Shown piece by piece: positions 1 to 21,242 of a DNA stretch of 64,000 bases; the stretch's first letter is position 1; every line of letters starts with the position of its first letter. Source of the DNA: an uncultured Treponema sp. (GTDB taxonomy: Bacteria; Spirochaetota; Spirochaetia; Treponematales; Treponemataceae). The translations under genes and the position numbers were made by a program. Location of the stretch: contig CAMJZA010000006.1 in the NCBI GenBank assembly GCA_946410085.1, positions 1 to 64,000 of the forward strand, read 5' to 3'. The notes below the pieces were generated by a model. That model saw only the letters and a program-made list of their open reading frames with translations, searched no databases and had not been told where the DNA came from.

Positions 1-1116
1 ACCCTCCACGAAAATACGGATTCCCTTGCCCGGACGGGCATCCTGCACCTGCCGCACGGCGACGTCCATACGCCGGTCTTCATGCCGGTCGGCACCAAGG
101 GGACGGTCAAGGCCGTGAGCCGTGAGTCGCTCGAAGCAATCGGCTTTGAGATCATCCTTGCCAACACCTATCATCTGTACCTGCGGCCCGGGACGCCCCT
201 GATCAGGGAGGCGGGCGGCCTGCACGGATTTACCCGCTGGGAGCGGAACTTCCTGACGGACTCGGGCGGCTTTCAGGTTTTCTCGCTTTCCGCCCTGCGC
301 AAGTTCGACAGTGAGGGCGTGACCTTCCGGAGCGACATTGACGGCAGCAAGCATTTCTTCACGCCGGAGAACGTCGTGCAGGCCCAGACGGACCTGAACT
401 CCGACATCCAGATGCAGCTGGACATCTGTTCCGGCTGGGGCGTGGACCGGAAGGAAGCGGAGCGCGCCCTCAGAATTACCTCGGACTGGGCGAACCGCGC
501 CATTGCGGAATGGAAGCGGCAGCAGGCGGAAGGCTACCGGGGCATTTTGTTCCCCATCGTACAGGGGAACTTCTTTGAGGACCTGCGCAGGGAAAGCGCG
601 GAATTCGTCAGCTCGCTGGATACGCCGGGGCTGGCGATCGGCGGCCTGAGTGTGGGGGAACCTCCCGAGGAGTTTGCCCGCATGCTCCGCCATACCGTGC
701 AGTTCATCACGCGGGAAAAGCCCCGCTACGTCATGGGAATCGGGACACCCCAGTATATCCTTGAGGCGGTCGGGGACGGAATCGACATGTTTGACTGCGT
801 GCAGCCGACCCGCATTGCCCGCCACGGCCTGTACTTTACGCGGAAGGGCATGCTTTCCATAAAGCAGAAGCGCTTTGAAAAAGACTGGGGACCGGTAGAC
901 CCGGAGTGCCAGTGCCCTGTCTGCCGGACCTATTCCCGCGCCTACCTGCGGCATATATTCCGCGAGCAGGAAATCCTGTCGTCCATGCTCGCAAGCTACC
1001 ACAACCTGTATTTCCTGCACGAGATGATGAACGGCATCCGGGCCGCCATCGCCGCTGACTGTTTTGAGCAGTTCCGCGCAGACTTCCTTGCCGCCTTCGA
1101 GTCCGGCGACTTGTAG
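1..1116 (+). CDS. tgt: Queuine tRNA-ribosyltransferase (Tgt), 5' end outside the window
   Basis: The reading frame is open from base 1, and the residues before the first ATG (base 82) still match the Tgt N-terminus (HTPVFMPVGTKGTVKA), so the real start lies upstream and the gene is partial. The enzyme exchanges guanine-34 for preQ1 or queuine in tRNAs with GUN anticodons. Visible hallmarks are LTDSGGFQVFSLS, the nucleophile-region motif MFDCVQPTRIARHG, and the zinc site CQCPVC followed by a histidine in ASYHNLYF. The C-terminal codons GDL-stop are supplied by the first unit of a palindromic tandem repeat (1105-1156), so the repeat has replaced or reshaped the last residues. The assignment is secure. 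Confidence 0.97.
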   Translation, partial: TLHENTDSLARTGILHLPHGDVHTPVFMPVGTKGTVKAVSRESLEAIGFEIILANTYHLYLRPGTPLIREAGGLHGFTRWERNFLTDSGGFQVFSLSALRKFDSEGVTFRSDIDGSKHFFTPENVVQAQTDLNSDIQMQLDICSGWGVDRKEAERALRITSDWANRAIAEWKRQQAEGYRGILFPIVQGNFFEDLRRESAEFVSSLDTPGLAIGGLSVGEPPEEFARMLRHTVQFITREKPRYVMGIGTPQYILEAVGDGIDMFDCVQPTRIARHGLYFTRKGMLSIKQKRFEKDWGPVDPECQCPVCRTYSRAYLRHIFREQEILSSMLASYHNLYFLHEMMNGIRAAIAADCFEQFRADFLAAFESGDL

Positions 1117-1156
1117 TCGTTCCTGGCGACTTGTAGTCGTTCCTGGCGAGCTGTAG
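1105..1156. repeat. Tandem 20-bp palindromic repeat at the 3' end of tgt
   Basis: Two perfect 20-bp units (GGCGACTTGTAGTCGTTCCT at 1105-1124 and 1125-1144) are followed by a partial, diverged third (1145-1156). Each unit holds the dyad CGAC-TTGTA-GTCG and a TAG stop. The first unit provides the tgt stop codon. A degenerate AT-rich relative lies at 5253-5272 immediately before hsdR, so the restriction island lies between two such elements. Confidence 0.75.
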
Positions 1157-1186
1157 GGCGAGGGCCTGTAGAAAAAGACACGGATG

Positions 1187-1206
1187 CGTGCTATACTGAA
1201 ACAATG
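1187..1206 (+). promoter_or_regulatory. Extended -10 promoter, leaderless start of hsdM
   Basis: TGC-TATACT (hexamer 1192-1197) is followed by six bases (GAAACA) and then the hsdM ATG at 1204. No ribosome binding site fits in that gap. With normal spacing the transcript would begin at or next to the ATG. No good -35 is seen, which fits an extended -10 promoter. Confidence 0.6.
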
Positions 1207-2793
1207 GCAGACAGCAGAAAAGAGACTGAGCGGGCGGAACTTCACCGCACCATCTGGGGCATCGCGAACGACCTGCGCGGCAGCGTGGACGGATGGGATT
1301 TCAAGCAGTATGTGCTCGGCATGCTCTTTTACAGGTATATTTCGGAAAACCTTGACAGATACATTTCCAAGGGCGAGATAGAGGCCGGAAACAGGGATTT
1401 CAGCTACGCGGGGCTTTCCGACAGGGAAGCGGAGACCATAAAGGACGATATCGTAAAGGAGAAGGGCTTTTTCATCCTTCCTTCCCAGCTCTTTTGCAAC
1501 GTGCTCGAGAAGGCTGCGAAAGACAACACCGACCTGAACGAAAGGCTTGCAAAAATCTTCAGGCAGATAGAAGGGTCCGCGCTCGGTACTGACAGCGAGG
1601 ACGACTTCAAGGGCCTGTTCGATGACATTGACGTGAACTCAAACAAGCTCGGTGCGACCGTTACCAGGCGGAACGAGATGCTCGTCAAGCTGATGACCGG
1701 CATTGCGAGCATGAACCTGGGAAACGGCGACTATTCCGACAACACGATCGATGCCTTTGGCGATGCTTACGAATACCTTATGGGCATGTACGCCTCTCAT
1801 GCCGGAAAGTCAGGCGGTGAATACTACACCCCGCAGGAAGTCAGCGAGCTCCTTACAAAAATCACGCTCGTCAGCAGTGACGGCAAGCAGAAAAAGACGG
1901 TGAACAAGGTCTACGACCCGGCCTGCGGTTCCGGCTCGCTCCTTTTGAAGTTTGCAAAAATCCTGGGGGCTGACAACGTCCGCCTGGGCTTCTTCGGGCA
2001 GGAAATCAACATCACGACATATAACCTGTGCCGGATAAACATGTTCCTGCACGACGTGAGCTATGACAAGTTCAACATCAAGCTCGGCGACACCCTCATA
2101 GACCCGAAGCATTGGGATGACGAGCCGTTTGAGGCGATCGTCTCAAACCCGCCGTACTCAATCAAGTGGGAAGGCGACGACAACCCGATTCTCATAAACG
2201 ACCAGAGATTCAGTCCGGCGGGTGTCCTGGCCCCGAAGGGAAAGGCCGACCTTGCCTTTATCATGCACTCGCTTTCCTGGCTTGCGACGAACGGAACTGC
2301 GGCAATCGTCTGCTTCCCCGGCATCATGTACCGGGGAGGTGCCGAGCAGAAAATCCGCAAATATCTTGTTGATAACAACTACATCGACTGCATCATCCAG
2401 CTGCCGGACAACCTCTTCTTCGGGACTTCGATTGCGACCTGCATCATGGTTTTGAAGAAGGGCAAGGCCGAAAGCAAGACCCTCTTCATCGACGCTTCCA
2501 AAGAGTGCGTCAAGGTCACCAACTCAAATAAGCTTACGGAAGAAAACATCGGGAACATCCTCAGGGTCTTTACCGAACGCAGGGAAAAAATCGACTATGT
2601 GAGCCGCCTGGTGGACAATGATGAGATAGCGGCGAACGAATACAACCTTTCAGTCTCAAGCTATGTGGAAGCCGAAGACACGCGGGAAGCAATCGATATA
2701 CAGCTCCTGAACGCCCGGATTGCCGGGATTGTCGCAAAAGAAAACACGCTCCGTGCCCAAATTGACAGGATTATCGGGGAGATTGAGGGGTAA
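1204..2793 (+). CDS. hsdM: Type I restriction-modification DNA methyltransferase, M subunit
   Basis: 529 residues, a usual length for HsdM. The N-terminal helical HsdM domain (about 5-130) is followed by the SAM-dependent N6-adenine methylase fold. Motif I reads [12 protein letters not shown] near residue 240 and the catalytic motif IV reads SNPPYS near residue 315. With HsdS it methylates the recognition site; with HsdR as well the complex would restrict. All catalytic motifs are intact, in contrast to hsdR downstream. The gene is GC-rich like the host, while the following yhcG-like gene is AT-rich. The start is an apparent leaderless ATG six bases after a TATACT hexamer. Confidence 0.95.
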
Positions 2794-2794
2794 A

Positions 2795-3841
2795 ATGGAA
2801 AACGAAATTGTTCATATAAAAACTGATAATATCTTAGACGATGCGCGTAAGATTATTGAAACTGCCCGTTCAAATGCCGTTCGTAGTGTAGATTTTAGCC
2901 GTGTTCAGATGTATTGGAACTTAGGCAGACGAATTTTTGAAGATGAACAGGAAGGAAAAGAGCGTGCTGATTACGGTACATACCTTATTAAGAACCTTGC
3001 AACAAATCTTGAAGCTGAATACGGAAGTGGTTTTAGTGAAAGACAACTAAAATTTTGCAGACAGTTTTACAAGCTTTATCCAATTGGGAACGCACTGCGT
3101 TCCCAATTAAACTGGTCTCAGTACAGAGCTTTGATTCAAATTCCTGATGCAGAAAAACGTGAATACTATGAACTTGAATCAGTAAATAACGGATGGACAG
3201 GACGCGAAACAGAAAGACAGATAAACAGTCAGCTTTATGAGCGTCTTTTGATTTCTAACGATAAGGAAACACTTCTGGCTACTGCAAGAAAGGAACGGGT
3301 TGTTGAAAAACCTACAGAAATTATAAAAGACCCTATGATTCTGGAATTCTTAGGTCTTGAAAGAAAACCTGTTTATTATGAAAGTGATTTGGAGACGGCT
3401 CTTATAGAACATTTACAGCAATTCCTACTTGAACTTGGGAACGGCTTTGGCTTTATTGCCCGCCAGAAAAGGCTTCTTATAGAAGATGATGAATATTTTG
3501 CCGACCTTGTTTTCTATAACAGACTTTTGAAATGTTTTGTAGTGATTGAATTAAAGACGCATAAAATTACTCATGAAGATTTAGGACAGCTTCAGATGTA
3601 TGTAAATTATTTTGACCGCAACGAAAAGCTTCCTGATGAAAATCCTACAATCGGAATTCTGCTTTGTACTGCAAAGAATGATGAAATGGTAAAAATGACT
3701 CTTCCAAAAGACAACAAGAATATTCTTGCAAGTAAATATGAACTTTACCTTCCGTCGAAAGAAGCCCTGCAGGAAGAAGTTAAAAAGCTTGCAGAAGCTC
3801 AGCGGAAATTTGATGAAGCAAAGGACGGAGCAGAAGAATGA
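2795..3841 (+). CDS. YhcG-like PDDEXK nuclease domain protein (DUF1016 family)
   Basis: 348 residues from ATG 2795, one base after the hsdM stop. An ATG at 2720 inside hsdM is also in frame but is less likely. The N-terminal half is the helical DUF1016 region (WNLGRRIFEDEQEGKERADY, then FSERQLKFCRQFY). The C-terminal half carries a PD-(D/E)XK core: an acidic helix ESDLETALIEHL, then ADLVFYN near residue 235 and the E-x-K strand VVIELK near 250. The family is often found in or beside type I restriction loci; its function there is unclear (known from the family). Base composition is clearly more AT-rich than hsdM, suggesting separate acquisition. The stop overlaps the hsdS start as ATGA, so it is translated within the operon. 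Confidence 0.85.
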   Translation: MENEIVHIKTDNILDDARKIIETARSNAVRSVDFSRVQMYWNLGRRIFEDEQEGKERADYGTYLIKNLATNLEAEYGSGFSERQLKFCRQFYKLYPIGNALRSQLNWSQYRALIQIPDAEKREYYELESVNNGWTGRETERQINSQLYERLLISNDKETLLATARKERVVEKPTEIIKDPMILEFLGLERKPVYYESDLETALIEHLQQFLLELGNGFGFIARQKRLLIEDDEYFADLVFYNRLLKCFVVIELKTHKITHEDLGQLQMYVNYFDRNEKLPDENPTIGILLCTAKNDEMVKMTLPKDNKNILASKYELYLPSKEALQEEVKKLAEAQRKFDEAKDGAEE

Positions 3842-4416
3842 GCAGGTTAGATGAACTGATAAAGGAACTCTGCCCGGACGGGGTGGAATATAAGACGCTT
3901 GGAGAAGTGGCTACAATAAATCGTGGTGTTCGAGTAACTCGTGATATGTTGCAGATAGATGGAAAAATCCCAGTGTATCAAAATGCATTAACTCCATTAG
4001 GATATTTTGACAAATCAAACAGAAAAGCATTTACAACTTTTGTAATAAGTGCTGGTGCAGCAGGACAAGTTGGTTTTTCTGATGTTGATTTTTGGGCTGC
4101 TGATGATTGCTATACTTTTGATAATTTGAATGGTTTGAACGGCAAGTATTTATATTATTTCTTGCAAACAAAACAAAGTTATATTGATTCGAGGGTTAGA
4201 AAGGGAAGTATTCCTCGAATTAGTCGTGATAATTTTGAAAAACTCTCTGTCCCCGTGCCGCCGTTGCCCGTGCAGGAAGAAATCGTGCGCATACTCGACT
4301 CATTCACCTCGCTTACAGCGGAACTTATAAATGAACTTGCTGCGGAGATTGAAGCGCGTAAAAAGCAGTATGAGTATTACAGGGATAAACTGCTATCGTT
4401 TGAACGGAAAATGTGA
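3838..4416 (+). CDS. hsdS: Type I restriction specificity subunit, half-length
   Basis: 192 residues, about half a standard HsdS, with one target recognition domain (roughly 20-140) and one conserved spacer helix region (roughly 145-192, including PLPVQEEIVRILDSFTSLTA and RKKQYEYYRDKLLSF). Standard subunits carry two such units; half-size ones can work as dimers (known from the family). The 3920-4240 stretch coding the recognition domain is AT-rich, while the conserved flanks are GC-rich like the host, the usual mark of a swapped recognition domain. A second copy of the last 12 codons occurs at 4758-4796 with nothing upstream of it, so a larger hsdS array has decayed here. Confidence 0.88.
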   Translation: MSRLDELIKELCPDGVEYKTLGEVATINRGVRVTRDMLQIDGKIPVYQNALTPLGYFDKSNRKAFTTFVISAGAAGQVGFSDVDFWAADDCYTFDNLNGLNGKYLYYFLQTKQSYIDSRVRKGSIPRISRDNFEKLSVPVPPLPVQEEIVRILDSFTSLTAELINELAAEIEARKKQYEYYRDKLLSFERKM

Positions 4417-4443
4417 TAAAATAGAATTGATGGAGGTGTATTT

Positions 4444-4653
4444 ATGAGTTATGAAGCAATAGAACAAGCGACAACAACGCTCACGAGAATTGAGCAGTTA
4501 AAACTTCTTGCATATTTGGCGAATCTTATAAAAGAAAGCGAAGAAAATGATTATTCGCTGGAAAAAGCCGTGTCTGATTCACGCAATCAGAAAAATCTGT
4601 ACGGTCCTTTTGATTTCGCACAGGCGGCAGTCGCATCAATGCTGGAGGACTAG
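4444..4653 (+). CDS. Small antitoxin-like protein, no partner toxin
   Basis: 69 residues from ATG 4444, preceded by a good ribosome binding site (GGAGGTG). The N-terminal half (LTRIEQLKLLAYLANLIKE) is helical and resembles the N-terminal part of small antitoxins paired with PIN toxins; this is inferred from pattern, not from a clear signature. It follows the hsdS stop by 27 bases. No toxin reading frame follows; the next 170 bases hold only repeats and a decayed hsdS tail. Because the same order (hsdS tail, then a small gene starting ATGAGTKAT) recurs at 4758-4823, this gene and the one at 4823 occupy equivalent slots of a duplicated segment, although their proteins differ after the first residues. 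Confidence 0.5.
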   Translation: MSYEAIEQATTTLTRIEQLKLLAYLANLIKESEENDYSLEKAVSDSRNQKNLYGPFDFAQAAVASMLED

Positions 4654-4675
4654 GCGTAAGCAGAATTGCTTGATT

Positions 4676-4699
4676 TTATGTAAAATGTTATGTAAAATG
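4676..4699. repeat. Two tandem copies of a 12-bp AT-rich unit
   Basis: TTATGTAAAATG occurs twice back to back (4676-4687, 4688-4699) followed by TAGGTAGG. It sits in the decayed gap between the two antitoxin-like genes. No function is evident. Confidence 0.5.
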
Positions 4700-4728
4700 G
4701 TAGGTAGGTGGTAAGCTTCGGTTACTTT

Positions 4729-4796
4729 TGCACGCAATGAAAATGGCAGGTCTATAGTACAGGGATAAACTCCTGTCTTTTGAGCGGAAAGTGTGA
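4729..4796 (+). pseudogene. Remnant of a second hsdS 3' end
   Basis: Bases 4758-4796 read YRDKLLSFERKV-stop, matching YRDKLLSFERKM-stop at the end of the intact hsdS at nearly every codon. Similarity fades upstream through about 4729 with small indels. The homology continues past the stop into the ribosome binding site of the next gene (GTGGAGGTG versus ATGGAGGTG). This is the footprint of an hsdS duplication or cassette exchange. Confidence 0.8.
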
Positions 4797-4822
4797 TATA
4801 ATAACGGTGTGGAGGTGATGTT

Positions 4823-5053
4823 ATGAGTGATATGGCATTGGCGTATTTTAATGAACTTGATAATTTTGATGTTCCTACACTTACAGCGATTTTCGAGAAA
4901 GTGAAAATGCTTCTTGCAAAAAAAAGCGGGCAAAAATCTGTTTTTGATGAAATAGAAATTCCAAAAGAAAAGATGGCTTTTTTTAACGCAATCGGGAAAA
5001 TTTCTTTTGACAAAAGTAGGGTAGAAGATTTGCGGAAGGATAGCATTATATGA
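4823..5053 (+). CDS. VapB-like antitoxin of a PIN-domain toxin
   Basis: 76 residues with a strong ribosome binding site (GGAGGTGAT). The sequence is not a recognisable AbrB or RHH fold by eye; the call rests on context. Its stop overlaps the start of a PIN-domain coding sequence (ATGA at 5050-5053), the standard antitoxin-toxin arrangement. The C-terminal third (FFNAIGKISFDKSRVEDLRKD) resembles the toxin-binding tails of PIN antitoxins. The gene is intact while its toxin is truncated, so it may now be neutral or may act against a PIN toxin elsewhere. Confidence 0.6.
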   Translation: MSDMALAYFNELDNFDVPTLTAIFEKVKMLLAKKSGQKSVFDEIEIPKEKMAFFNAIGKISFDKSRVEDLRKDSII

Positions 5054-10041: not shown

Positions 10042-10096
10042 GGCCCGGGCCCAGGGCTAGGCCCGGACAAAGCCCGGGCAAAGCCCGAGGCTGCAG

Positions 10097-10148
10097 TCCC
10101 GCCATTACCACTTGCCGGATGCGCCGCCGCCGGATGTGCGGCCACCAT
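10097..10148 (-). pseudogene. Remnant of a TPM-protein 3' end, opposite strand
   Basis: Read on the minus strand, 10146-10105 encodes GGRTSGGGASGKW-stop, identical to the last 13 residues of the TPM protein that ends at 13306. The DNA matches over about 45 bases, including GGCGGG after the stop. Nothing further upstream of the tail is recognisable. It is the residue of an inverted copy or of a lost paralogue. A run of nine G lies beside it (10152-10160). Confidence 0.75.
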
Positions 10149-10248
10149 GCAGGGGGGGGGCGACGGCCTCACGATAGCTAAAATTTGCCTGAACTCCATG
10201 TCCTGCCTGCAGCTGAATGGAATGCAGCAGGTGTTTCTTGAAATGCGC

Positions 10249-10301
10249 TTGACATTTTTTTTTTTTTTGTCATACTGCGCTATGTTGTTGTAATGAAAGG
10301 A
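10249..10301 (+). promoter_or_regulatory. Promoter with a T14 tract in the spacer
   Basis: A consensus -35 TTGACA (10249-10254) and a -10 CATACT (10271-10276) are 16 bp apart, and 14 of those 16 bases are an unbroken T run (10255-10268). AAAGGAG at 10295-10301 is the ribosome binding site of the lipoprotein gene. A homopolymer between -35 and -10 can change length by slippage and so switch promoter strength. Confidence 0.65.
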
Positions 10302-10309
10302 GTTTTTTC

Positions 10310-10816
10310 ATGGAAAAAAGGGCTTTTGCTTCTGTCCTGCTTTGTTTTGTCGCATTCTTTCTGCTGTCTTTGAGCTGTGCGTCTGGGCCAAAGCAGACAA
10401 CTGTTAAGATTGCGAATGTTCGCTCATGGGTCGTAGATGGCTCAGTCTCTGTGCCGTGTGAATCAAATCTTTCAATTGCCCAATGGAAATATCTTGTGAA
10501 GGAGCTTGATAAAATCGACCAGCTTGATAATATCAAGTTATCTGCAGGCAAAGGAATTGCTTCCATGAACCTTGAAAGTTTCATAAAGATAAGCGGTGTT
10601 CCGTTGAAATATGTATATTCAGTGAAACCTTCTGCCGGAGAGCTTACCCTCACGATTTTGGATATTGCCGAAGCGGATCCTGAAGCCGGTGCTTTTGCGG
10701 TGACGATGACAGTCGATGAGCTTGAGGGATACAAGGCTTCTGTAGTCAAGAAAATCGAGAAAGATTTAACTTCTCATGCAGAATTCCTGGTTGAGAACAA
10801 AGTGCTGCTCGAATAG
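10310..10816 (+). CDS. Lipoprotein, paralogue of the gene at 16709-17242
   Basis: 168 residues of unknown function. A lipoprotein signal peptide ends in LLSLSC with the acceptor Cys at position 23. The mature part (SGPKQTTVKIANVRSWVVDG onward) aligns throughout with the protein encoded at 16709-17242 on the other strand: both have VSVPC, QWKYLV, LDNIKLSA or LNNIKLSA, MNLES and a C-terminal Lys-rich helix. Both should sit on the inner or outer membrane. The gene is less GC-rich than its neighbours. Expression is likely tuned by the T14 spacer of its promoter. No family name is recognised. Confidence 0.8.
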   Translation: MEKRAFASVLLCFVAFFLLSLSCASGPKQTTVKIANVRSWVVDGSVSVPCESNLSIAQWKYLVKELDKIDQLDNIKLSAGKGIASMNLESFIKISGVPLKYVYSVKPSAGELTLTILDIAEADPEAGAFAVTMTVDELEGYKASVVKKIEKDLTSHAEFLVENKVLLE

Positions 10817-11116
10817 AAATAGCTTTCGTTTCGTCGTTGCAACAATCATTCTATACATGGCAATAGTCGGTATGGATTGTTGCACGGCACATTTTAGGGA
10901 ACCTCGAAAAAAGCGTTTAGAAGTTCCTTATCCTGCCCCGGTTGCCTTCCCACATGACATCTCTCTGGAACATCGGTATCTGATACTTCCCCGTCCTCTT
11001 GGGCAAACACGGGACGATTCCGCTCTTTGACGCACAGAACCAAAGACATATTGATCAGGCTTTCGGCCGGGTTTTGCCAGTATGGGCGTAAAACTATGGC
11101 AGACTGGCCGCATTCG
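10817..11116. other. 300-base gap without a convincing gene
   Basis: No reading frame here has a ribosome binding site or protein-like composition. It holds one arm of an inverted repeat (11062-11085) and a weak dyad (GGAAC...GTTCC around 10898-10927) that loosely resembles the first hairpin of the insert at 42830. Otherwise nothing is seen. Confidence 0.5.
11062..11085. repeat. Left arm of a 24-bp inverted repeat flanking lemA-TPM
   Basis: This segment pairs with 13331-13354 in inverted orientation, with 22 of 24 positions identical; both contain CCGGGTTTTG and AGTATGG on the relevant strand. The arms enclose exactly the lemA and TPM genes. Confidence 0.65.
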
Positions 11117-11797: not shown

Positions 11798-13306
11798 ATG
11801 AAGAAGAAACACGGCATCTTTACGGTCGCCCACAGGCTTGTCCTCATGCTGTCGGCGCTCTGGCTGTTTGCGGTGCAGGCAGCAGGCACACAAAGCGCCG
11901 TGCCGCAGGCAGAAGCACCGGCACCAGTACCGGCACAGGCTGCCGGGCAGGACTTCCGTACGGACAAAGACGGCCTCTACGAATGGGCGGGCCCCGTCGT
12001 GGACGTATCCGGCCTTTTGTCCCCGGAGGACAGGAACGATCTGGCAGACTTCCTGAACCGGCTGCACGAGGACAAGGGGATCCAGCTTGCCGTGATGGTC
12101 GTCCCGAGCATGAACGGCGATGCAGCATTCTGCACAAAGCATCTTGTGAAATGGCAGAAGGAACAGGCTGCATTTGAAAACGGGGCCCTGCTCACCATTG
12201 CGACCAGCGACAAGCGGGTCGGCATGGGAAAAGGGAAAAAGGCCCAGGAACGGCTCACCCCGGAGCTGACGGAACAGGTGTTCGACGACTATCTCATACC
12301 CGATTACGCGGCGGGCCGGAAAGCCGAGGGAATCCGCAAGGCCGTGCTCAGGACGGCAGTCATACTCAGCGGGGACGAGTCGCTTACGCTCCTGCGGTCC
12401 AGACAGGCCCTCATGGTCAAACCCGCCCTCACGGAGTACCGCAGGGACAAGGAGGGTCTCTACGACTGGACGGGCAGCTTTGTCCTGGACGCCGCGGACA
12501 TCCTGTCTGCCTCCCAGTACGGGGAGCTTGCAGGCTACCTCCTGGACCTGAACGACAGCACGGGCGTGCAGATTGCCGTCCTCACGGTGCCGACGACAGA
12601 CGGCGAGCCGGTGCATGATTTTGCCGTCCGCCACTTCGAAAAGTGGCAGCTGGGCCAGAAGGGCGTGGACAACGGCGCACTGCTGACCATCGTGATGGAC
12701 TCGCATGACCTTGACATCACGACCGGAGACGGCACGGAAGGAGTGCTGACTGACATACTGTGCAAGCGGATCATCGACGACGTTCTGGTTCCCGCCTTCC
12801 GCGGGGGAACGCAGGGCGCGGGCGTCATCAGCGCGGTGCGCAACATGGCGGGCATCATCACGCAGGACGACTCGCTCGTCACGGTATCCCGGGCGGGCGG
12901 AACAGCCGAGGATGCCAAGTGGTATGAGATCCTCGGCGGTGCCGTGATTTTCCTGCTGCTCATGTTTTTCGTCGGAAAGGCCGTCATAGGGGGGCTGAAA
13001 GATATTCTGGATGTGGTTCTGGGAGCGTTCGGAATTGACATTGGCAAAACGACCGGCGGAGGAGGCTCGTCTTATTCCGCTTCCTCAAGCCCGTACTCAT
13101 CCAGGTCGAAATCCTCACATTCGACCTCGCGTCCGTATAGATACCGCTGCGATGATGACGATGATTCCTATTCGTCCCGCTCGTCCAGTTCCAGCTCCTA
13201 TTCGTCCCGGTCCAGCTCGTCCAGCTCGCGGTCGTCCGGCTCCAGCTCCTACCGCTCGGGCGGGGGTGGCCGTACGTCAGGCGGCGGTGCATCCGGCAAG
13301 TGGTAG
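11798..13306 (+). CDS. Membrane protein with two TPM domains and a Ser-rich tail (YgcG-like)
   Basis: 502 residues. A signal peptide (about 1-30) is followed by a Pro/Ala linker and two tandem TPM domains, about 60-195 (YEWAGPVVDVSGLLSPED, then NGALLTIATSDKRVG) and 215-360 (YDWTGSFVLDAADILSASQY, then NGALLTIVMDSHDLDI). Most YgcG-type proteins have one. A transmembrane helix (AVIFLLLMFFVGKAVIGGL, about 384-402) precedes a low-complexity cytoplasmic tail of Ser and Arg with a DDDDD patch, ending in GGRTSGGGASGKW. It follows lemA by 39 bases and forms an operon with it. The pair is enclosed by inverted repeats (11062-11085 and 13331-13354), and a copy of its 3' end lies at 10097-10148. Confidence 0.88.
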   Translation: MKKKHGIFTVAHRLVLMLSALWLFAVQAAGTQSAVPQAEAPAPVPAQAAGQDFRTDKDGLYEWAGPVVDVSGLLSPEDRNDLADFLNRLHEDKGIQLAVMVVPSMNGDAAFCTKHLVKWQKEQAAFENGALLTIATSDKRVGMGKGKKAQERLTPELTEQVFDDYLIPDYAAGRKAEGIRKAVLRTAVILSGDESLTLLRSRQALMVKPALTEYRRDKEGLYDWTGSFVLDAADILSASQYGELAGYLLDLNDSTGVQIAVLTVPTTDGEPVHDFAVRHFEKWQLGQKGVDNGALLTIVMDSHDLDITTGDGTEGVLTDILCKRIIDDVLVPAFRGGTQGAGVISAVRNMAGIITQDDSLVTVSRAGGTAEDAKWYEILGGAVIFLLLMFFVGKAVIGGLKDILDVVLGAFGIDIGKTTGGGGSSYSASSSPYSSRSKSSHSTSRPYRYRCDDDDDSYSSRSSSSSSYSSRSSSSSSRSSGSSSYRSGGGGRTSGGGASGKW

Positions 13307-13330
13307 CGGCGGGGCTGCCGGTGCTTTTTG

Positions 13331-13354
13331 CCATACTAGCAAAACCCGGCTGAA
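13331..13354. repeat. Right arm of the inverted repeat flanking lemA-TPM
   Basis: Reverse complement of 11062-11085 with two differences. It lies 25 bases after the TPM stop and just before the likely valS promoter (GC-TATACT at 13360-13365). Confidence 0.65.
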
Positions 13355-16708: not shown

Positions 16709-17242
16709 TTAATATTCAAGCGCCGTTTTCTTTGCGATCAGTTCGTTTGCATGGGCGGTCATTTCATTGGTGAACTGCTTGATGACGTTTGCCTTGTAAT
16801 CAGAAACTTCGTCGAGGCCCATCGTGACGGAGAAGGTCTTTGCCGCCGGATCCTGTTCCTCGATGGAGCTGATTTTGAGGATTACCTGTCCTGCCGCAGA
16901 TTCCAGCGAATAAATGTACTTCAGGACGGTGTTGCTGATGGTGATGGTGCTCTCAAGGTTCATTGCCGTCAGGCTGTTGCTTGCGGACAGCTTGATGTTG
17001 TTGAGCCCGTTGATTTTGTTGAGCTCCGTAACAAGGTATTTCCACTGGATTACCGACAGCTCCGGGGTGCAGGGAACGGAAACCGTGGTTCCGCCTGCCC
17101 ATTCCTGAATGTCAGCTATCCTGACGGTCTTCTGCCGCGGTGCGCTTGCACAGCTTAACGAAAAGGCAAAAAAGGCCGCAAAACAGAGTGCCGCGGCAAG
17201 TATGGAAAAAGTCTGCTTATTTTTTTTCACGTGTACGTTCAT
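16709..17242 (-). CDS. Lipoprotein, paralogue of the gene at 10310-10816
   Basis: 177 residues from ATG 17242, chosen because CAGGGGG lies six bases upstream; an in-frame ATG at 17266 has none. The signal peptide ends in FSLSC with the lipid-acceptor Cys in FSLSCASAPRQKTV. It aligns along its length with the lipoprotein at 10310-10816 (VSVPC, QWKYLV, LNNIKLSA, MNLES). No named family is recognised. It probably shares a transcript with the VanZ-like gene. Its upstream region contains a nine-base A/T run flanked by ATACTG and CAGTAT, but unlike the paralogue no TTGACA is spaced against it. Confidence 0.8.
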   Translation of the reverse strand: MNVHVKKNKQTFSILAAALCFAAFFAFSLSCASAPRQKTVRIADIQEWAGGTTVSVPCTPELSVIQWKYLVTELNKINGLNNIKLSASNSLTAMNLESTITISNTVLKYIYSLESAAGQVILKISSIEEQDPAAKTFSVTMGLDEVSDYKANVIKQFTNEMTAHANELIAKKTALEY

Positions 17243-17324
17243 AGAATCCCCCTGTATTTCAATCATCGGAATAATACATGAATACTGAAAAAAAAAGCAG
17301 TATGACGCGCTGAAAATCCGTATC

Positions 17325-19679: not shown

Positions 19680-21179
19680 TTACAGCGGAATGTTCCCGTG
19701 CTTCTTGAGCGGCAGGTTGTTCTGCCGTTTGTTTTCCAGGAACTCAAGGCTCCGGGCAACGCATTCCCGCGTCTGCTCCGGTTCGATGATTTCGCTGATG
19801 TAGTCATGGGCTGCGGCGATCTTGGGATTCATGACCGTTTCCCGGTATTCCGCTGACTTCTGTGCAACGAAGTCTGCCTGGCCCGGATCCTTCATCTGCT
19901 TGGCATAGAGGATTTCAAGCGCGCCTTCTGCACCCATGACGGCGATTTCCGCCTTTGGCCATGCGTAGACGAAGTCCGCTCCCAAGTGCTTGGAGCACAT
20001 CGCAATGTATGCGCCGCCGTAGGCCTTGCGCGTAATGACCGTTACCTTTGGAACCGTCGCCTCGCTGTAGGCGTAGATGACCTTTGCCCCGTGGCGGATG
20101 ATGCCCTTCTGCTCTTCATCGGGACCGGGCAGGAAGCCGGGGACATCGACGAAGCTGACGAGCGGAATTTCAAAGCTGTCGCAGTAGCGGACAAAACGGG
20201 CAATCTTGTCGCTCGCATCGCAGTTCATCAGGCCGCCCCAGACGGCAGGATTGTTTGCAATGATGCCGACGGACTTGCCTTCGATTTTTGCGAATCCGAC
20301 GACGGACATTGCCGCAAACTCTTCCATGACCTCAAAGAAAGAATCGTCGTCCACCACGCAGTCAATGACCTTGCGGATGTCGTAGCCCTTCTTGCTTTCT
20401 TCCGGCAGGACGGTGCTTATTTCCTTCTTCTTTTTCTTTTCGTCGAACTTGAACTTTGTGTCCTGAAGCAGCTTTTCTCCATAGTAGTGGGGGATGTAGT
20501 CCAGCAGCTTCCTGACTTTCGCATAGCAGTCCTGTTCACTGCCGCAGCGGAAGTGGGCAACACCGCTCTTTTCCGAGTGGATTGCAGCGCCTCCCAGTTC
20601 CTCCGACGTGATGTCCATGGACAGGACGCTCTTGACGACCTTGGGACCGGTGATGAACAGCTGGCTTATCTTGTCGACGGCGAAGATGAAGTCCGTGATG
20701 CCCGGCGAATACACCGCACCGCCCGCACAGGGACCGGCGATGATGCTTATCTGGGGGACGGAGCCGCTCGCCCTGACGTTCTGGTAAAAAAGCTCTCCGT
20801 AGCCGCAGAGCGCGTCAATTCCTTCCTGAATCCTCGCTCCGCCCGAATCGTTTATGCCGATGACCGGGCAGCGTGCTTCGATTGCCTTGTCAATCAGCTC
20901 GGCTATTTTCTGCCCGTGCACCTTGCCCAGGCTGCCTCCCTGCACCGTGAAGTCCTGCGCATAGACGGCGACCTTCTTTCCGTTGATTTTGCCGAAACCG
21001 GTAATGACGCCGTCATAGGGGATTTCCTTATCTGCCATGCCGAAGCTGGTACACTGGTGGCGTGCGCGGGAATATATCTCGTGGAAACTGTTTTCGTCGC
21101 AGAGGGCTGCGATGCGCTCAACGGCGTGCAGCTTGCCCTTTGTGTGCTGTTTTTCAAGATTATACGTGTAGTTAGCCAT
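19680..21179 (-). CDS. Acyl-CoA carboxyltransferase (propionyl/methylmalonyl-CoA type)
   Basis: 499 residues with the two crotonase-like halves of the biotin-dependent carboxyltransferase beta family. The acyl-CoA oxyanion motif is GPCAGGAVYSPG near 150, SGGARIQEG lies near 115, and the biotin-site loop is KAYGGAYIAMCSKHL near 425. The protein could be the beta subunit of propionyl-CoA carboxylase or the alpha subunit of a sodium-pumping methylmalonyl-CoA decarboxylase; no biotin carboxylase, biotin carrier or membrane subunit is adjacent, so this cannot be decided here. It starts at ATG 21179 only seven bases after TGT-TAGTAT, an apparent leaderless start. Confidence 0.9.
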   Translation of the reverse strand: MANYTYNLEKQHTKGKLHAVERIAALCDENSFHEIYSRARHQCTSFGMADKEIPYDGVITGFGKINGKKVAVYAQDFTVQGGSLGKVHGQKIAELIDKAIEARCPVIGINDSGGARIQEGIDALCGYGELFYQNVRASGSVPQISIIAGPCAGGAVYSPGITDFIFAVDKISQLFITGPKVVKSVLSMDITSEELGGAAIHSEKSGVAHFRCGSEQDCYAKVRKLLDYIPHYYGEKLLQDTKFKFDEKKKKKEISTVLPEESKKGYDIRKVIDCVVDDDSFFEVMEEFAAMSVVGFAKIEGKSVGIIANNPAVWGGLMNCDASDKIARFVRYCDSFEIPLVSFVDVPGFLPGPDEEQKGIIRHGAKVIYAYSEATVPKVTVITRKAYGGAYIAMCSKHLGADFVYAWPKAEIAVMGAEGALEILYAKQMKDPGQADFVAQKSAEYRETVMNPKIAAAHDYISEIIEPEQTRECVARSLEFLENKRQNNLPLKKHGNIPL

Positions 21180-21211: not shown

Positions 21212-21242
21212 TCAATGACAAAAAAAGATATTTTGTCATTGA
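21212..21242. promoter_or_regulatory. Perfect 12-bp inverted repeat, candidate operator
   Basis: TCAATGACAAAA (21212-21223) and TTTTGTCATTGA (21231-21242) are separated by seven bases. It sits upstream of the carboxyltransferase promoter, in the gap between divergent genes, so an operator is more likely than a terminator. Confidence 0.5.

Follow-up and report, generated by a model that had tools for sequence, protein, structure and literature searches.

In a 64,000-nucleotide stretch of DNA from an uncultured Treponema sp. (hereafter, the window), a lipoprotein gene is preceded by a σ70-type promoter whose −35/−10 spacer consists almost entirely of a run of 14 T, and the same run forms the centre of an inverted repeat that is also found in front of fatty-acid genes. 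We put at somewhat below even the chance that this is a σ70 promoter with a slippage-prone T14 spacer that drives the lipoprotein gene and at the same time serves as operator for a lipid (fatty-acid) regulon. This reading is favoured over three rival explanations because promoter spacers of surface genes carry simple repeats throughout the genus and because the repeat at this locus lies in an operator-like frame.

Anatomy of the T14 promoter

The promoter, TTGACA-T14-GT-CATACT, occupies positions 10249–10276 of the forward strand. The initial annotation had placed the two hexamers 16 bp apart with 14 of the intervening bases being T, and direct reading showed this to be exact: the −35 hexamer TTGACA (10249–10254) is followed by the T tract (10255–10268), by GT (10269–10270) and by the −10 hexamer CATACT (10271–10276), which matches the consensus at four of six positions. 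Both hexamers were recovered by a promoter scan, which also revealed a TG preceding the second hexamer, i.e. an extended −10 element (TGT, or TGn, 10268–10270). The extended −10 TG, the inverted repeat and the paralogous gene described below had not been mentioned in the initial annotation. The scan found exactly one σ70-like promoter in the region 10042–10400, this one, with 10 of 12 hexamer matches, while shuffled sequences gave 0.1 ± 0.4, and none of 100 dinucleotide shuffles of the window came close to the full promoter string. A Shine-Dalgarno-like AAAGGAG is located at 10296–10302 (forward strand), 8 nt upstream of the lipoprotein gene.

T14 is the longest homopolymer in the window. The genome from which the window comes (G000, 3.64 Mb in 134 contigs) contains only eight runs of at least ten T and two loci with at least 14, at both of which TTGACA stands immediately 5′ of the run; since both directly follow TTGACA in a genome of this size, the T14 promoter is not a product of chance. 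The 200 genomes of the genus that were searched contain 239 runs of at least 12 T and seven sites where TTGACA is joined to at least 11 T, all seven with at least 12; equal base frequencies would predict about 0.06 such sites, and reversed-pattern controls gave none. A chance origin of the run was rejected on the basis of the genome and genus T-run counts and of the shuffles. Because the assembly is a draft, the T count is perhaps off by one.

The possibility that the T run belongs to a terminator was also rejected, as a terminator-like stem is absent from 10042–10400. A search against Rfam detected no RNA elements in the window.

Several other repeats are located in the vicinity. A G9 tract at 10152–10160, longer than any other G run in the window, lies about 90 bp upstream of the T14 promoter and outside any promoter spacer. 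A 54-bp inverted repeat (87%) pairs 10093–10146 with 13265–13318, i.e. the 3′ end of a TPM-domain gene region (11798–13306) has a reversed copy upstream of the lipoprotein gene. A second inverted pair, of 24 bp, is formed by 11062–11085 and 13331–13354.

The lipoprotein gene and its homologues

The gene following the promoter (10310–10816, forward strand) codes for a protein of 168 aa with a signal peptide and a lipobox LSLSC (Cys23). The annotated product, a lipoprotein, was thereby borne out, and it is an envelope product of the kind expected for phase variation through a promoter spacer; it is presumably surface-exposed. No Pfam or NCBIfam family matched it. An AlphaFold model was obtained with a mean pLDDT of 84, and a Foldseek search with this model gave no match at E ≤ 0.001. 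Weak similarity to the BamC N-domain and to START/helix-grip folds (Z at most 7) was set aside as a guide to function.

A paralogous lipoprotein gene, about 51% identical, is located 6 kb away on the reverse strand (16709–17266). Its upstream region contains neither TTGACA-T14 nor a TGACA/TGTCA site, and its orthologues in other Treponema keep the same conserved upstream region. A search for orthologues of the exact 10310–10816 copy, undertaken for comparison of tract length, yielded only the paralogue lineage and more distant homologues, the latter including a branch with about 22–25% identity. The T14/operator site is absent upstream of the homologues in nine other genomes and of the paralogue. 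Named homologue matches came from Treponema and from Spirochaetaceae MAGs, including goat rumen ones.

In one homologue (G098; L072 / L031) a single extra A just after the start codon, A8 compared to A7 in G035 (L073 / L029), puts the gene out of frame. Either translational phase variation or a mistake in the assembly could account for this.

Long T tracts in promoter spacers of the genus

Nine promoters of the form TTGAC(A/T)-T≥11 were found in the 200 genomes, with TTGACT-type sites sought only in a narrower search than TTGACA-type ones. Five of the nine precede lipoprotein genes (the window gene 10310–10816, a TRL-family gene in G107, and genes in G034, G142 and G125) and two precede genes of outer-membrane β-barrel-like proteins (G092 and G032); the remaining targets are a membrane protein gene in G123 and a RiPP/radical SAM unit on contig C88 of G000, which has a T17 tract. 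Lipoproteins are thus more frequent after these promoters (5/9) than after generic TTGACA-N17-TATAAT promoters (3/30; Fisher p 0.009).

Poly-G and AT-repeat spacers

Other simple repeats occupy the same position in related genomes. A pattern with at least eight G in the spacer matched in 46 of the 200 genomes, at roughly 100 distinct sites with runs of G8 to G13, compared to 5 counts for the reversed-pattern control. Genomes with such promoters include G196, G222, G108 and G021, with up to 18 in one genome among the matches listed, and most of the set lies in front of lipoprotein and outer-membrane protein genes. When downstream products were classified by our own simple rule for lipoproteins and signal peptides, 19 of 30 poly-G promoters examined preceded lipoproteins and 8 preceded other signal-peptide proteins, the corresponding numbers for 30 generic promoters being 3 and 12, of which 12 about seven seem to belong to a single gene family present in several copies (Fisher test for lipoproteins, 3e-5).

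Which repeat unit occupies the spacer varies within a gene family. In G127, TTGACA-AATGT-G9-TATACT lies about 100 bp upstream of the start of a homologue of the window lipoprotein. The outer-membrane protein gene that carries a T12 spacer in G092 is matched in G000 by a homologue of 92% identity, where an AT-dinucleotide repeat lies in the −35/−10 spacer of the barrel-like gene (TTGACA-ATCC-(AT)n-TACACC; contig C68, L219 3945–3990), and more distant homologues have spacers with G9, G11 and G9. Tract length also differs between orthologous poly-G promoters: G13 in G143 corresponds to G9 in G156, the flanks being almost the same, and G9 corresponds to G8 in the G101/G084 pair, these being differences between species with one genome per species. 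Taken together, the comparison says that spacer repeats appear to be maintained before surface genes across the genus.

These data bear on a neutral account of the locus, in which an ordinary strong promoter happens to have a spacer rich in T, or the tract owes its length to an artefact of assembly, with no regulatory meaning in either case. Ordinary promoters do have T-rich spacers, and the genome is a draft of 134 contigs. As a control, T7 after TTGACA was found to be common; most such sites are not promoters, and they show no enrichment for surface genes and mostly do not precede them. It is the long tracts, and not T7, that concentrate before lipoproteins and outer-membrane proteins, and different repeat units substitute for each other within the same gene families. 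We consider this account improbable.

The initial annotation had proposed phase variation of a surface-type lipoprotein through changes in T-run length. The promoter geometry, the product, the T, G and AT repeats in spacers before lipoproteins and outer-membrane proteins of relatives, and an orthologous G tract of differing length all speak for the proposal, which the comparative evidence makes plausible for the T14 promoter. It is weakened by the operator-like inverted repeat described below, which is a partly rival explanation of why the tract is T-rich and exactly 14 long.

T14 forms the centre of an operator-like inverted repeat

Positions 10250–10272 read TGACA-N13-TGTCA, an inverted repeat identified in arm/spacing and matrix searches, with T13 of the tract as its centre. 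Within-genome searches covered 1.66 Mb of G000 (about 45% of the genome), with the window among the stretches used. Exact arms flanking an AT-rich centre occurred at four sites, all at spacing 13, and at none with spacings 5–12 or 14–23 in the same 1.66 Mb. Besides T14, these are a site inside a chemotaxis-receptor gene, a site before fabF (L219 8810, contig C68), with a FabA-domain gene next after it, and a site within the window, TGACAAAATATCTTTTTTTGTCA (21216–21238, reverse strand), upstream of an acyl-CoA carboxyltransferase gene (19680–21179, reverse strand; PF01039). A further site, with one mismatch, precedes an acyl-CoA ligase gene (L260 10636). The −35 and −10 elements that we read for the fabF and carboxyltransferase genes are placed elsewhere relative to the repeat, which indicates that the repeat is more than a by-product of promoter geometry.

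The genus was searched with the pattern TTGACAT6-N(0–10)-GTCAKAHTG. Besides T tracts, four sites were found, all with the same 14-bp distance: before fabD in G178 and G148, before a carboxyltransferase gene in G119 and before a fabG-like gene in G147. The G148 fabD site differs from the T14 site at just two central bases. A matrix built from the three fatty-acid sites of G000, including the mismatched ligase site, scored T14 at 23.8 bits and the next unrelated site at 17.9. When the matrix was built from the foreign sites instead, the top three ranks went, in order, to T14, the ligase site and the fabF site, the rank of T14 being favoured here because the search string was derived from the T14 site; the association of the other matches with fatty-acid genes is independent of that string. 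Across the fatty-acid-site matrices T14 ranked first or fourth, well above the 1.66 Mb background. We conclude that the TGACA-N13-TGTCA sites before the carboxyltransferase, fabF and acyl-CoA ligase genes probably mark a fatty-acid regulon. No gene for a cognate regulator of these sites was found, and our literature search returned nothing relevant on spirochaete fatty-acid operators. Sites of repressors of the FabT, FapR, FabR and FadR type overlap fab gene promoters; to our knowledge, TGACA-N13-TGTCA does not match the consensus site of any of the four.

One way to account for these observations is a fixed operator of the fatty-acid regulon, combined with a promoter, in which the all-T centre is fortuitous, a repressor dimer holds the spacing at 13 and phase variation plays no functional part. 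The T14 site does share arms and N13 spacing with the fatty-acid-gene sites of G000 (fabF, carboxyltransferase and, with its mismatch, ligase) and of other genomes (fabD, carboxyltransferase, fabG-like), the near-identity of the G148 fabD site points the same way, and all three T tracts with operator-type arms are of length 14. With a genomic GC content of 56%, an unbroken run of 14 T has no explanation under this proposal. Moreover, fatty-acid genes are absent from the targets of the nine T≥11 promoters, though the operator precedes such genes in several genomes; the window gene itself lies outside lipid metabolism, its product being a lipoprotein, and its homologues lack the site in their upstream regions. 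A fixed operator is, in our judgement, unlikely.

Equally unlikely in our estimate is plain promoter-spacer phase variation, in which T14 only tunes the −35/−10 distance and the arms are incidental to a −35 element and an extended −10 element. Six of the nine T≥11 sites have no right arm at the relevant spacing and still mostly precede surface proteins, and the poly-G and AT-repeat spacers of the same gene families have no arms. Against this stand the scores of T14 with the fatty-acid-site matrices, far above the 1.66 Mb background, and the sequences that directly follow the T run in G123 (TGTCA) and G125 (TGTAA), where the tract, as in the window, is exactly T14 and the spacing N13. T tracts without operator-type arms are T12, T16 or T17. 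That all three arm-bearing tracts are exactly T14 suggests constraint rather than free drift.

A proposed combined spacer and operator switch

A tract of 14 T is long enough for replication slippage. Returning to the combined promoter and operator, which we favour, slippage would change promoter spacing and operator half-site spacing together, since the T tract is the centre of the inverted repeat. At T14, the 16-bp spacer and the extended −10 element should keep the promoter active. If one or more T were gained or lost through replication slippage, the −35 and −10 hexamers would stand 15, 17 or 18 bp apart, and the TGACA and TGTCA half-sites, now separated by 13 bp, would be separated by 12, 14 or 15. 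A single slip may in this way alter the fit of both RNA polymerase and repressor, so that some cells of a population would express the gene and others would not. Length variation of T14, its effect on transcription and the existence and identity of the repressor are what we infer. A more specific proposal, in which one homopolymer sets both the promoter spacing and the half-site spacing of a single fatty-acid-repressor operator, slippage resets polymerase fit and lipid responsiveness, and the locus is one case of genus-wide T-, G- and AT-repeat switches in commensal Treponema, is possible but doubtful. Counting against the combined switch are the small number of operator sites, the derivation of the search string from T14 itself, the failure to find a regulator gene, the uniform length of the three arm-bearing T tracts, and the occurrence of T14 in one paralogue only with no orthologous site in relatives.

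Promoter-spacer switches of related design are known. In the Treponema pallidum gene tp0126, coding for an OmpW homologue, a poly-G tract lies between −35 and −10, and expression is optimal at spacing 17 (Giacani 2015, as summarised in PMC7864442). The T14 promoter likewise has a homopolymer between the −35 and −10 elements of a treponeme envelope-protein gene; unlike tp0126, it has a T tract, a lipoprotein product, a gut/rumen-type Treponema as host and a tract that is also part of an operator-like inverted repeat. Surface genes of two other bacteria, Neisseria meningitidis porA (poly-G spacer) and Haemophilus influenzae hifA/hifB (TA-repeat spacer), share the simple repeat in the −35/−10 spacer (PMC3899988), and the AT-repeat promoter of the C68 outer-membrane protein gene has a hif-like layout. 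These systems belong to a different phylum, and the repeat unit read in the window is T. In N. meningitidis nadA, a repeat tract and the repressor NadR act on the same promoter, and repeat length changes operator spacing (PMC2791445). The geometry of the T14 locus fits this, as tract length would set the spacing of the putative operator; in nadA, separate operators flank the repeat, whereas here the repeat lies between half-sites of a single putative operator, inside the promoter spacer. By analogy, we read the T14 locus as a variant form of the spacer switches of tp0126 and porA to which a NadR-like feature is added.

In the papers cited here, treponeme promoter-spacer switches come from the agent of syphilis. 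The same architecture, with several repeat units, is seen here in commensal gut/rumen Treponema, where its targets include lipoproteins, outer-membrane proteins, a RiPP unit and even Cas12a, so that treponeme surface variation gains a large comparative base in commensal species. No relevant paper joining Treponema, rumen and phase variation was returned by our literature search. If the operator overlap is true, the locus would represent a compact design with stochastic switching and lipid sensing in the same 23 bp, and would point to a fatty-acid operator of the genus without a match to a described one.

Other loci with repeats in promoter spacers

The second long T tract of the G000 genome is located at G000:C88:9413–9435 (L002 1495–1517) and reads TTGACA-T17-GGTGGTACACT. 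Its spacer is 22 bp, which predicts an off state. The promoter precedes a 35-aa peptide ending in CYCSC, followed by a radical SAM/SPASM maturase-like protein, and the locus is possibly a phase-variable RiPP unit.

A poly-G9 spacer promoter, TTGACATTTTTAT-G9-TGTTATAAT, lies about 115 bp upstream of a Cas12a gene in two species (L300; L301, G111:C12). In L300 (G151:C39:600–8600) the gene occupies 959–4924 on the reverse strand (TIGR04330, 1324 bits). CRISPR repeats were not found near Cas12a inside the 8 kb examined. CRISPR-Cas12a is a candidate for phase variation in these genomes.
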